This document shows, piece after piece, positions 44,377-52,203 of a DNA stretch of 64,000 nucleotides. This stretch comes from Coffea arabica (taxonomy: Eukaryota > Streptophyta > Magnoliopsida > Gentianales > Rubiaceae). The stretch is taken from NCBI RefSeq assembly GCF_036785885.1, contig NC_092323.1:5186501-5250500 (forward strand), in the 5' to 3' direction. Under the pieces are notes generated by a model. The model had not been told where the DNA came from. It saw only the letters and a program-made list of their open reading frames with translations, and did not search any database. The number at the start of each line of letters is the position of its first letter. Positions within the stretch are counted from its first letter, which is position 1. Made by a program: the position numbers and the translations under genes.

Positions 44377-44572
44377 CACTTGGGATCCTCGGTGACATGA
44401 ATCCAATGCCAAACCAGTGCCACCTATGATATTGCGCCACTTGGCCTATTATTATTTGCATTTTAATTTTTTAATAATTCAACTTGGTTTGGTTTAACAC
44501 AAATTTTGTGTTAACTCTAAAACTTTGAACCAAAGTAACCAACCGGTCTAATTCCATTACCGGTGCTTTCAT
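44377..44572 (+). repeat. Left terminal inverted repeat of the FAR1-type MULE
   Basis: Matches the right end at 194 of 196 bases in reverse complement. The captured PH1 piece begins less than 100 bases further in. Confidence 0.92.
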
Positions 44573-44606
44573 CATTGATTACCTTCAACATCTCCAATCC
44601 ACTCTG

Positions 44607-44783
44607 ATGAGGTCCACATCTTCAGAGTCGTCGTCCTTTTTTTCCACCACCGGCTCCGCCATTCCACGTGGCATCACCTTCACTGCCGATTGCCTCACCG
44701 TCAAAGGCACCAAGGACGTCCTTAACAAGCCCTTCTCTTTCGAGCTCTCCACTGGCAGGGATACCATGTACTTCATGGCTTAG
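44607..44783 (+). pseudogene. Captured fragment of a PH1-type pleckstrin homology gene
   Basis: An ATG frame of 58 codons. From about 44667 it reads RGITFTADCLTVKGTKDVLN then KPFSFELSTGRDTMYFMA and stops. From memory this matches the middle of plant PH1 (RGV--V--CLTAKGAEDVLNK-FAFELST--ETMYFIAD), a small PH-domain protein that binds phosphoinositides on endosomes. The beginning and end of the PH domain are absent, so no functional PH1 is made. The residues before position 20 of the frame do not look like PH1. It sits just inside the left TIR of the MULE, the common place for captured DNA. Confidence 0.8.
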
Positions 44784-45400
44784 TTTGTAGAAGGGAAGAA
44801 AAGGGGGGAACAAGAAAAAGGAGAGAAAAAGAGAGCAAGAGGACTTCGGTTAGAAGGGAAGGTGAAAGAGGGGTTGGAAAAAGCTAAGGGAAAAAGCAGA
44901 GGGGAACTTCGTCTGGTAGCCAAGGGAAAGAAAATAAAAGAAACGGGCGGCGAATGGAGAGCCTAAAGGAGAAGAGACCGAGAGAGTTGAGGGCAAAAGA
45001 AAGATTGAGGGAGAGGTGACAGCAAAAGGAGGGCGGCGAACGGAGGAGCTTTGGGGAAATGACAGAAATAAGGAAACAAGCGACGGGGGAGAGATTTTGG
45101 GGCTGAGCGAAAAAAAACAGAGAAGGAAATAGGGGCGGCGGATGGAGAGTTGAAAGAACGGAGGAAAGGGGGAAAATCTGGAATTTGGAGGAGGAATTCT
45201 GGGCAGGGTAAAACGGATGGAAAGGAGCAAGCAAAAGAGAGGAACTGAGGACTTCGTCTGAAAAAAAACCAAGAAAGGGAAGAGGGGATGACGGCAGAAA
45301 GAAACAGAGAAAGAAAGGATGGCGGTGGACGAAGAGGCGTGCGGCTGAGAAAGAGCCGGAATCCACCATTGCCGCCATTCAATGCAAGAGCACTGTAAGT
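44784..45400 (+). other. Purine-rich strand-biased tract, possible captured leader
   Basis: For about 600 bases the plus strand is dominated by A and G (AAGGGAAGAAAAGGGGGGAA and similar). The minus strand therefore shows several overlapping long frames of Ser/Phe/Pro/Leu that I regard as artefacts of composition. The tract ends at CATTGCCGCCATTCAATGCA and a good donor site, CACTGTAAGTC, at about 45394. It could be the 5' leader and first exon of a captured gene; its origin is not recognised. Confidence 0.5.
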
Positions 45401-46598
45401 CATTTTCTTTAAAAATTTCAGTTCTTGTCAAGCTCACAAAGCAGTCTGCCGAGCCTTTATTCACTACAATTTTCCTATTAATTGTTCACAATTTTGGATT
45501 GTATGTGCCTTATATGCTGAATTGGACCGAAATCTCTTGTTGATTGAACAATTTTGAGCCAACCGAGACCTCATTTGAGTAGGGAATTGCTGAAATTTCC
45601 ATGCCCATTTTCGGTTTTGAGTATTATTGTGTTATATTTTACTTGTCTGTTTATGATTTGTAAGGAAGTTATAGTTTTTCTACAATTAAATGTGAAGCAC
45701 CCTAGCAACCATCAATCGTTACAAGTATATGATGATATATGGTTTTTCTCGGCCTGGAATTTTGTCTTTCTTTTCTTCAGTTGCTTGGAAGAAAGTAAGA
45801 TGAAATGCTCCATTATTATAGCTTTGTCATGCAGCAAATCTTTTTGCTCACAGTTTGTTGCTTGTAGAAAGAACGAAAGAAATAGAAGTGTACTTGGTTT
45901 TGAAATTGTAACACGCCAGGGAGATGTTAAGTAGGTACTTGGTTTTGTAATGCAGTCTAGTATCAGTTGTATAGGGAGAACAAATGCAAAGGAGAAATAT
46001 AGGGAACCTATTCTTTTTTTATCAATTGTAACACCCTTTATGTTGCAACTTATAGAATGATCCTAGTTAAATCCATGACTAGAATTAGTTGAATGGTGAT
46101 GTTAAGTTTGTGATGTCTTTGTTTAATCTATTTGTAATTAACCTTAATGTCTTTGGTTTACTTTTCATAATTCAGAGGTGGTTGTTGCATGAATTTCAAA
46201 GTTTTCCTTGACGTATTCTAAACATTGTGGAATCCTTTATTTTTCACCCTTTCATTTTTCTTCTGTGGTCTTTGCCTTGCTGGAAGGAACTTGACTTTTG
46301 GTGATCTCACTGTAGGTAAAACAAATGGTAGTCGCACCACTTGCTGGAATAGTTTAGAAAATATAACAGCAAAGTTTTGATATTTTGCAATGCAGAAAAA
46401 TTTGCTATTATCTATAGTTGTTTCTATAGGGAAATGGTTCATGATGCTCTGTTAACGATTGCAGTAACTCATGCCTTTTGTTCTTGATAAGACAAGCATT
46501 TACCTTTTATGCATCCGCTTCCAGGAAATTCTTAGAAGTTATTTGGAACACTTTCTTGGAGCAAGAAGCTAATATATTAATCCATTTTCTGTTTTCAG
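45400..46598. other. Intron-like DNA between captured pieces
   Basis: T-rich, with no gene recognised. It is bounded by a donor-like GTAAGTC at about 45395 and by the acceptor TTTTCAG at 46592-46598, so it could be spliced out as one long intron. Confidence 0.4.
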
Positions 46599-50200: not shown

Positions 50201-50352
50201 AAAGGAATCAATGTATGAATTTTATTTATATCCTTTATCACATTTAAAACTGGTGGAGTGGAAACCTCATCATTGGTAATTTGATCTACCTTGTCAAAAT
50301 TCAATCTGCGACAGGATGATACCTCAGTTTCCATAGAAGCCTTAGCATCCAT
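47223..50352 (-). CDS. FAR1-related MULE transposase, five exons
   Basis: Predicted exons 50352-48088, 48001-47936, 47845-47699, 47596-47516 and 47393-47223 join in frame to 909 aa. The frame is open to 50457, but only from a TTG; the first ATG is at 50352, unless an upstream exon supplies another. Residues 59-155 form the FAR1 DNA-binding domain (GMEFESEEDAYNFY to IIEHNHYL). The MULE catalytic core has Asp282 (VCFDTTYRK), Asp344 (ILTDQDAAM) and Glu453 (RSESMNSVIK). The SWIM finger has Cys571, Cys573, Cys583 and His585. Host FAR1/FHY3 are domesticated light-signalling factors from this family. Here TIRs and a target duplication show a resident transposase. Exon 3 codes a two-fold 21-residue repeat. 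Confidence 0.88.
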
Positions 50353-50817
50353 ATCCTGTAACCTTTCAAGAGTCGTGACACAGGCAAGACTTGCTCTAAC
50401 GCTTGACCCACTGGAAGCTCCTTCTTGTTTTTGCTTTTCCGGGCTTTTTCCTTTCAATAACCCTCGAATCCCGTGTCAACAAAAACCACCTAAAAATGAC
50501 AACTAAACCACCTAAAAATGACAACTAAGGTCAAAAGCTCCAAATTTGACATACAACGAAACGTGAAATGCAAGAAGGCAATGTTTCAGGTTGCAATAGA
50601 ACACACATTTGACGTACAACTATACAAACAAAATAATAGATTACTTTTGATTTAATCATCATGTTTTCAACATCAGTACATGCATGCTTGTACTCAAAAA
50701 AATTCAGATTTGGTGAAGAAAGAAACAAAAATCTAGTCTTTCCCTATTGTAAGGTGGAAGAAGCAGCAAGGTGAAGAAACCAATTAATAAAGATAACATT
50801 ACTGCAAGGAAATGTAC
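50353..50817. other. Leader region of the FAR1-related gene
   Basis: Minus-strand sequence between the S9 piece and the first ATG. It holds a short duplicated stretch, CACCTAAAAATGACAACTAA, repeated around 50488-50526. A donor at 50817 (AAG|GTACAT) at the end of the S9 piece could splice into the open frame above 50352. Otherwise nothing is recognised. Confidence 0.4.
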
Positions 50818-50898
50818 CTTCTCTCAAACGAGGACGTAAATCTGGTGCCCAGTTTTGCAGTGCCCGGCTGATGCCCAATTGAATAGCACCAACCTGAC
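50818..50898 (-). pseudogene. Captured exon of mitochondrial ribosomal protein S9
   Basis: Between an acceptor (CGGAACAG) and a donor (AAG|GTACATT), the 81-base minus-strand piece reads GQVGAIQLGISRALQNWAPD and then LRPRLRE. This matches from memory the conserved block GQVGAIQLGISRALQNWEPD of plant mitochondrial uS9. The following block, (R)AAGFLTRDSRVVERKKPGK, was not found, so the gene is only a fragment. It lies on the same strand as the FAR1-related transposase, about 470 bases upstream of its ATG, and its splice sites are intact. Confidence 0.85.
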
Positions 50899-52007
50899 CT
50901 GTTCCGAGGAGTGAACAATAACAATTAGCTGGTAACATAAGAAAATTGCTAAAGTTGAATTGAATCATCAAATAACTCGTCCTAGGCAGGTAGAATGATT
51001 CGACATACAGCTTGCATGATTAAGGAACCACGGGTTTTAAATTTGGTGAAAAATTAATCCCATGGTAAGGACTAAAACCTCAAACACCGCCAAGGAATAG
51101 GGTCAAAAGAGGAACCAGGTCCAGATGTATTTTACTATTTTGAATCTCAACAAGTCTTCTTACTGAAACCTAACTGAATTAACCCTAAATTAACAAAAGA
51201 ATTTCATGCAAGTTAATTGCAATACAATAAGGAAAAAATGTAAGCAAATTTTTTCCCTCAATAATTTATTAAAATAGTTGAATTTCCAATTCTATTTGTT
51301 CACTACTACTACTTGCAACTAGTCAGAAAAGCTATTGTTACTTCTTGTATCTTTTTTTTAAATTTGGTACATTAGTAAAATTTATAACAATTCTTGAAAT
51401 AATAAATAATTTTTTAATCCCACAAAGTAACTTATTTTCCAGGTATATTACAATTAGCGTGTAAGTAGTCAATTTGACCACTCAATTAATATTTAATCTT
51501 TCCAAACTCACAATTCAATGTAAATTTCACTTTAATGGAAATTGAAAATGAAGATATAAAATTGCATAACATAAGGTAGGGTGATATTGCTTATGAGTTA
51601 TTATGTAACTTACGAGTTGTTGTCTATTTCCTAACTTTCTTAATATTAAAAAAATTGAAATTCGAAATCAAGATCATGGAGCAAATAGTGATATTGATTT
51701 AATAAATCAAAGCTGAAAAAACTCTAGACTTAAACCGGATGCAAGGTTGGATAATTACCTGAATGATGTGAAACGTTTTGGTTTGTTCTTTGCTGGAGAA
51801 AGCTAGGGATGGTTGGGCTTTAATTTGAGTACTTCCTGAATCTTTGTAGTCAATTTGCTTCAATAGTCGGCGGCTGCAGTTTTAGCTTATTAGGCTACGG
51901 TTGATTGTTCTAAGCAATGAACGATAAGAAGGCTTGAACTTTGGAGGCAATTGTTTAGGGTTATCTTTTTCTTTTTCCCAAAGCAACCGATCTTGAGTGG
52001 TTGCTGT
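50899..52007. other. MULE interior, 5' region of the FAR1-related gene
   Basis: AT-rich, with no coding region recognised. On the minus strand a leader exon may end at about 51760 (CATCATTCAG|GTAATT), close to the right TIR. This would be the promoter-proximal exon of the transposase transcript. Confidence 0.35.
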
Positions 52008-52203
52008 ATGAAAGCACCGGTAATGGAATTAGACCGGTTGGTTACTTTGGTTCAAAGTTTTAGAGTTAACACAAAATTTGTGTTAAACCAAACCAAGTTA
52101 AATTATTAAAAAATTAAAATGCAAATAATAATAGGCCAAGTGGCGCAATATTATAGGTGGCACTGGTTTGGCATTGGATTCATGTCACCGAGGATCCCAA
52201 GTG
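52008..52203 (-). repeat. Right terminal inverted repeat of the FAR1-type MULE
   Basis: The inverse of 44377-44572, with two differences in 196 bases. The 10-bp target duplication follows at 52204-52213. The end lies only 143 bases beyond the stop codon of the second MES gene, so the element may sit in that gene's 3' untranslated region. Confidence 0.92.

Follow-up and report, generated by a model that had tools for sequence, protein, structure and literature searches.

The stretch of Coffea arabica DNA analysed here (64,000 nucleotides of contig NC_092323.1, positions 5,186,501 to 5,250,500 of the forward strand; hereafter the window, numbered from its first letter) contains a Mutator-like element (MULE) at positions 44377-52203. 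The element is one unit of 7827 bp enclosed by a single pair of terminal inverted repeats (TIRs). Within this one pair lie a whole transposase reading frame and exons of host genes, and the ends are flanked by a perfect target site duplication (TSD). Its ends and its transposase gene are the following:

44367-44376, no strand: left TSD, CCATCTATAC, 10/10 identical to the right TSD
44377-44572, plus strand: left TIR, 196 bp, two mismatches against the right TIR
47223-50352, minus strand: FAR1-type MULE transposase of 909 amino acids (Pfam domains and a five-exon model made by eye)
50352-48088, 48001-47936, 47845-47699, 47596-47516 and 47393-47223, minus strand: transposase exons, with GT/AG junctions
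52008-52203, minus strand: right TIR, 196 bp, two mismatches against the left TIR
52204-52213, no strand: right TSD, CCATCTATAC, a perfect 10-bp match to the left TSD

The similarity between the two TIRs breaks off sharply at the inner edge on both sides, and the pair was recovered in a self-BLAST of the window with E values of 5.5e-98 and 2.0e-97, a match well beyond what chance would give. MULEs have long TIRs, typically of 100-500 bp (PMC3310237), and generate a TSD of 8-11 bp (PMC6446971); the 196-bp TIRs and the 10-bp TSD fall inside both ranges. A first-pass annotation of this DNA had described the same TIRs, with two mismatches, and the same perfect 10-bp duplication, and both were reproduced. 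In the self-BLAST (word size 11, E 1e-3), the only matches to the element were the element itself and its TIR pair, so that the 64-kb window yielded no second copy of either the element or its captures. Exact TIR strings retrieved no loci from genome_contigs (outer 23 bases) or from viral_contigs (an inner 28 bases), neither of which is described as a plant collection.

Because multi-copy TIRs are plausible points of mis-joining, the assembly could in principle have joined unrelated sequence between two TIR copies. A mis-join would not be expected to leave an identical 10-bp TSD at either end and, inside, a transposase that is intact when spliced, and we consider an artefact of this kind extremely improbable.

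The five-exon model of the transposase begins with the ATG at 50352, reaches its stop codon at 47223 without an internal stop and yields the open 909-residue, FAR1-related protein that the first-pass annotation had reported. In Pfam, the reading frame matched FAR1 (PF03101, 5.6e-20), MULE (PF10551, 8e-29), the ZSWIM RNase H-like domain (1.4e-12) and SWIM (PF04434, 2.7e-7), all four above the cut-offs of the database. The FAR1 domain is N-terminal and the SWIM domain C-terminal, the arrangement of Jittery/FAR1-type elements. The motifs CFDTTY, ILTDQD and QRSESM start at residues 280, 341 and 450, and their acidic residues Asp282, Asp344 and Glu453 are presumably the catalytic residues of the transposase. 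The first coding exon, which encodes 754 amino acids, had no PDB match at E 0.1. In the five-exon model, a complete transposase reading frame thus lies between matching TIRs, as in an autonomous MULE.

Host genes of the FAR1/FRS type derive from MULE transposases (PMC13306707, PMC3903597), which raises the question of whether this gene, too, is an FRS gene of the host lying between TIRs by coincidence, or belongs to an element that is now immobile. The gene is, however, enclosed by near-identical TIRs and a perfect TSD, whereas domesticated genes are described as no longer tied to mobility (PMC3903597); a domesticated or dead FAR1 gene is therefore very unlikely.

Judged by its domain order and TIR length, the element would fit the Jittery group of MULEs (group 36). 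Members of this group likewise have an N-terminal FAR1 domain and a C-terminal SWIM (or CCHC) domain in one open reading frame (ORF), and the 196-bp TIRs agree with those of its dicot and monocot subgroup, which are 39-292 bp long or absent (PMC6446971). The TSD differs: it is 10 bp here, while the table of that eukaryote-wide Mutator survey gives 8 bp or no indication. The 'various inserts, potentially host derived' that the survey records for group 36 belong to its red-alga subgroup and not to the plant subgroup (PMC6446971).

The host-derived pieces occupy both sides of the transposase gene:

44664-44780, plus strand: PH1-like (pleckstrin homology) coding piece of 39 amino acids, followed by a stop codon; compared with a hand-entered sequence
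46599-46697, plus strand: captured EF-hand exon of the CBL type, which opens at an AG acceptor and breaks off within the exon (PDB and Pfam)
50396-50489, minus strand: captured last exon of the mitochondrial RPS9 gene, including the stop codon (PDB and Pfam)
50483-50526, minus strand: perfect tandem duplication of 22 bp where the RPS9 intron meets the last exon (repeat search)
50490-50817, minus strand: captured RPS9 intron of 328 bp, with a GT donor and an AG acceptor between two RPS9 exons
50818-50898, minus strand: captured internal exon of the mitochondrial RPS9 gene; upstream edge uncertain

The best PDB match of the CBL piece is calcineurin B-like protein 2 (1uhn, E 2.4e-20), with 31 of 33 aligned residues identical, and Pfam identifies an EF-hand (1.6e-8). 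The similarity stops after these 33 residues, inside the exon as delimited by the exon limits that we assume for the parent CBL gene. The 34 amino acids that follow onward from the CBL exon, a candidate for a fourth captured piece, matched nothing in the PDB at E 10.

The RPS9 capture comprises two exons and the intron between them. The internal exon (50898-50818) matches mitochondrial uS9m with 23 of 27 aligned residues identical (E 3.1e-9) and has no Pfam match at E 1. The alignment begins one residue upstream of the presumed AG acceptor, which leaves the upstream edge of this exon uncertain. The last exon (50489-50396), which the first-pass annotation did not give and which is an addition to it, matches over 24 of 27 residues (E 1.3e-10) and by Pfam (Ribosomal_S9, 1.3e-8), and the similarity ends exactly at the stop codon. 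We take the matched CBL and S9 chains to be of plant origin. Since the S9 piece retains an intron, we infer that it was copied from DNA and not via reverse transcription. Rfam returned no match at gathering scores over the whole window, and hence no curated RNA family in the captured introns. The 22-bp duplication doubles the acceptor-like TTTTTAG at the captured S9 intron/exon boundary.

The PH1-like piece is likely derived from PH1, although its assignment is less secure than those of the other two captures. Over its 39 residues, 25 agree with a hand-entered stretch of Arabidopsis PH1; the score of 140 compares with a maximum of 54 in 2000 shuffles. No significant PDB match was obtained (four rows, the best being ribosomal L6 at E 0.86), and Pfam gave no PH domain, only He_PIG at 0.023, under the cut-off. 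The captures of CBL and RPS9 that the first-pass annotation had placed within the borders of the element are thus borne out by tool matches, and the third, PH1, is only probable.

All identified captures lie outside the coding exons of the transposase, as expected if the function of the transposase has been kept, and the host exons are bordered by splice-site-like sequences. These pieces might have arrived in other elements, such as Helitrons or Pack-type elements, that became nested in a plain MULE which itself captured nothing. Helitrons, with an example in maize, carry gene pieces as well (PMC13317346), and about 3.6 kb of the 7827-bp element remain unassigned after the TIRs, the transposase gene and the identified pieces have been accounted for. 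Against nesting, the element contains no second inverted-repeat pair of element size: among the 25 longest of 30 pairs, the next after the TIRs measures 33 nt at 73% identity. The search had a minimum of 16 nt, which nested elements with shorter TIRs would escape. Helitrons end in a 3' hairpin followed by CTRR and insert before a T. No such end was found on either strand of the element when scanning for CTRR(T) with a perfect, G+C-rich stem of 6-10 bp located 8-13 nt upstream, a rule that imperfect stems would escape; a Helitron carrying the gene pieces was rejected as a candidate under this perfect-stem rule. Nesting would also require two events, as host pieces flank the transposase on both sides. 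We consider it unlikely. Within the limits of the two scans, the sequence gives no sign of nesting or mis-joining, in agreement with the first-pass description of one single element.

Beyond the right end of the element, at a distance of 143 bases, is a reading frame on the minus strand (52347-52628) that has a sub-threshold alpha/beta-hydrolase match (E 0.00043, under the Pfam cut-off). On the same strand, 53018-53446 has a clear alpha/beta-hydrolase match (2.5e-22). If the two frames are taken as one gene, the insertion is probably located in the 3' flank of that gene. We conclude that the locus very probably represents an intact-looking FAR1/Jittery-type Mutator-like element that carries captured host exons and was inserted by transposase at the 3' flank of an alpha/beta-hydrolase gene.

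It is plausible that the element, in earlier copies, acquired genomic DNA of what are probably three host genes, and that the captured pieces entered the spaces between each TIR and the coding exons of the transposase, which would tolerate inserts. The most likely route would be gap repair or template switching after excision, in which ectopic templates are copied. The pieces come from different genes, some share the orientation of the transposase while others oppose it, and they are found on both sides of it, which suggests separate capture events.

Several points weigh against capture by an intact element. The splice sites of the transposase (GT/AG) were chosen by eye. Roughly 3.6 kb lie outside the TIRs, the transposase gene and the identified host pieces. 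The PH1 identity depends on a hand-entered Arabidopsis sequence. Spliced as in the model, the two RPS9 exons do not share a reading frame, so the captured copy does not encode S9. TIR identity is not a strict clock for a DNA transposon; the intact reading frame and the TSD are better indicators of age, yet they give no date. The first-pass descriptions of the element as 'young' and as a 'snapshot of the capture process' are unproven.

The position of the RPS9 exons relative to the transposase gene suggests a further relationship. On one and the same strand, the S9 stop codon finishes at 50396, 43 bases ahead of the transposase ATG at 50352; a mechanically called ORF of 820 amino acids begins inside the S9 exon, in a different frame. 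Farther upstream, one more exon can be proposed:

51759-52007, minus strand: putative non-coding 5' exon of the transposase mRNA, without ATG and ending at a good donor, CAG/GTAATT

One frame of this exon gave only two weak PDB matches, the better at E 0.17. The predicted leader of 467 nt, composed of the 249-nt 5' exon, the two RPS9 exons (81 and 94 nt) and the 43-nt stretch preceding the start codon, contains no ATG. By comparison, first-order Markov sequences modelled on the leader contained 4.3 ATGs on average, and 247 of 20000 had none, as did 7 of 2542 overlapping window segments of leader length. Two points count against reading much into these figures: the splice sites and the start of the leader (the inner TIR edge) were chosen by eye, and the ATG count was made after the sequence had been seen. 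The ATG-free stretch is therefore suggestive only as evidence for a leader built from RPS9 exons.

An acceptor-like TTACAG ends 3 bases upstream of the transposase ATG, and two arrangements can be envisaged. The transposase mRNA may carry both RPS9 exons as its leader; alternatively, the 5' exon may be spliced to the TTACAG acceptor, which would place the RPS9 DNA inside a skipped leader intron. Both options agree with the opposite side of the gene, where the identified captures fill the space between the TIR and the coding exons and the transposase is intact. In either case, the transposase gene would have captured S9 DNA as its apparent leader, or as an intron of that leader. That the transposase is expressed via captured host exons, with the 3' end of RPS9 acting as a 5' leader or as a leader intron that can be skipped, is a tentative proposal that we ourselves consider rather doubtful. 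We found no description of captured exons as a transposase leader in the literature searched, which was mainly open-access, so that absence is unproven. If the proposal is correct, capture rewires the element's own expression, and the transposase mRNA has sequence in common with the host's own gene encoding a mitochondrial ribosomal protein; this could also make silencing by small RNAs less effective.

Like Pack-MULEs, the element encloses pieces of host genes between the TIRs of a MULE (tool matches for RPS9 and CBL, comparison with a hand-entered sequence for PH1). Pack-MULEs are defined as lacking a transposase (PMC4858842, PMC8903248), and because a transposase is present here, we do not file the element among them; it works like a Pack-MULE equipped with its own transposase. 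The first-pass annotation had drawn the same contrast, which is partly a matter of definition. A survey in Oryza dropped MULEs with a transposase match before searching for host genes (PMC4858842), and a survey of Pack-TYPE elements, following the categories used for Pack-MULEs, first assigned those with a transposase match to the autonomous class (PMC8903248). As both surveys sort out transposase-bearing elements first, such elements may be under-counted.

The combination of transposase and host sequence is not new to MULEs: grapevine families of both MuDR-like and Jittery-like MULEs with ULP downstream of the transposase have been published (PMC2528002). In these transduplications, as here, host sequence and transposase share one MULE. 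The same study reports a Mutator family with exons and introns of cellulose synthase, whose transposase status is not stated in the section concerned, as well as PIF and hAT families that likewise contain host exons and introns; both Jitvine families, and several of the Mutavine ones, measure 7-18 kb (PMC2528002). While the grapevine ULP lies downstream of the transposase (PMC2528002), the RPS9 exons here lie directly upstream in the same orientation, and the element holds pieces of probably three unrelated genes. The barley MULE Hvu_Abermu is also large and likely autonomous, with a transposase and an extra ORF that is possibly host-derived (PMC9168764). That ORF has no recognised parent in the description given (PMC9168764), in contrast to the short exons of named genes found here. 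Transposase-bearing MULEs with host sequence are thus already known, and the element is a well-preserved and unusually complete example. What is special to it is how many captures a single intact copy contains and where its S9 exons lie. With a whole transposase, near-identical ends and captures in one copy, it is suited to studying whether gene acquisition is the work of autonomous elements themselves, and whether exons gained in this way change the expression of the transposase.

The remainder of the capture region includes one further distinct block, directly following the PH1-like piece:

44781-45396, plus strand: purine-rich stretch (78% A+G) with degenerate repeats (composition and repeat search)

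Its degenerate units are centred on GGGCGGCGAATGGAGAG, and a donor-like GTAAGT, located by eye, starts at 45395, at the end of the stretch. The opposite strand is open for 154-211 codons in three frames, which is common in C/T-rich strands. The ORF at 45554-45934 (plus strand), the only further listed ORF of the capture region that was put to Pfam, had no match.

A second, unrelated MULE occupies 34821-40477, 3.9 kb from the element. Its 204-bp TIRs (34830-35033 and 40265-40468) differ at five positions and are flanked by a perfect 9-bp TSD, TTGTTCTGG. It encodes a MuDR-type transposase with DBD_Tnp_Mut, MULE and SWIM domains, which spans 1198 open codons from a GTG (the first ATG is codon 11) when one intron, placed by eye, is crossed, and which has a long glutamine/histidine-rich stretch in its C-terminal part. 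Alpha/beta-hydrolase reading frames at 41524-41919, 52347-53446 and 59621-60094, which we take to be methylesterase-like, perhaps form a gene cluster adjoining or around the two MULEs. Self-BLAST also revealed a palindrome-like sequence of 303 bp at 43283-43585 (74%) and an inverted-repeat pair at 54266-54483 and 57281-57496 (75%), both possibly of the miniature inverted-repeat transposable element type.

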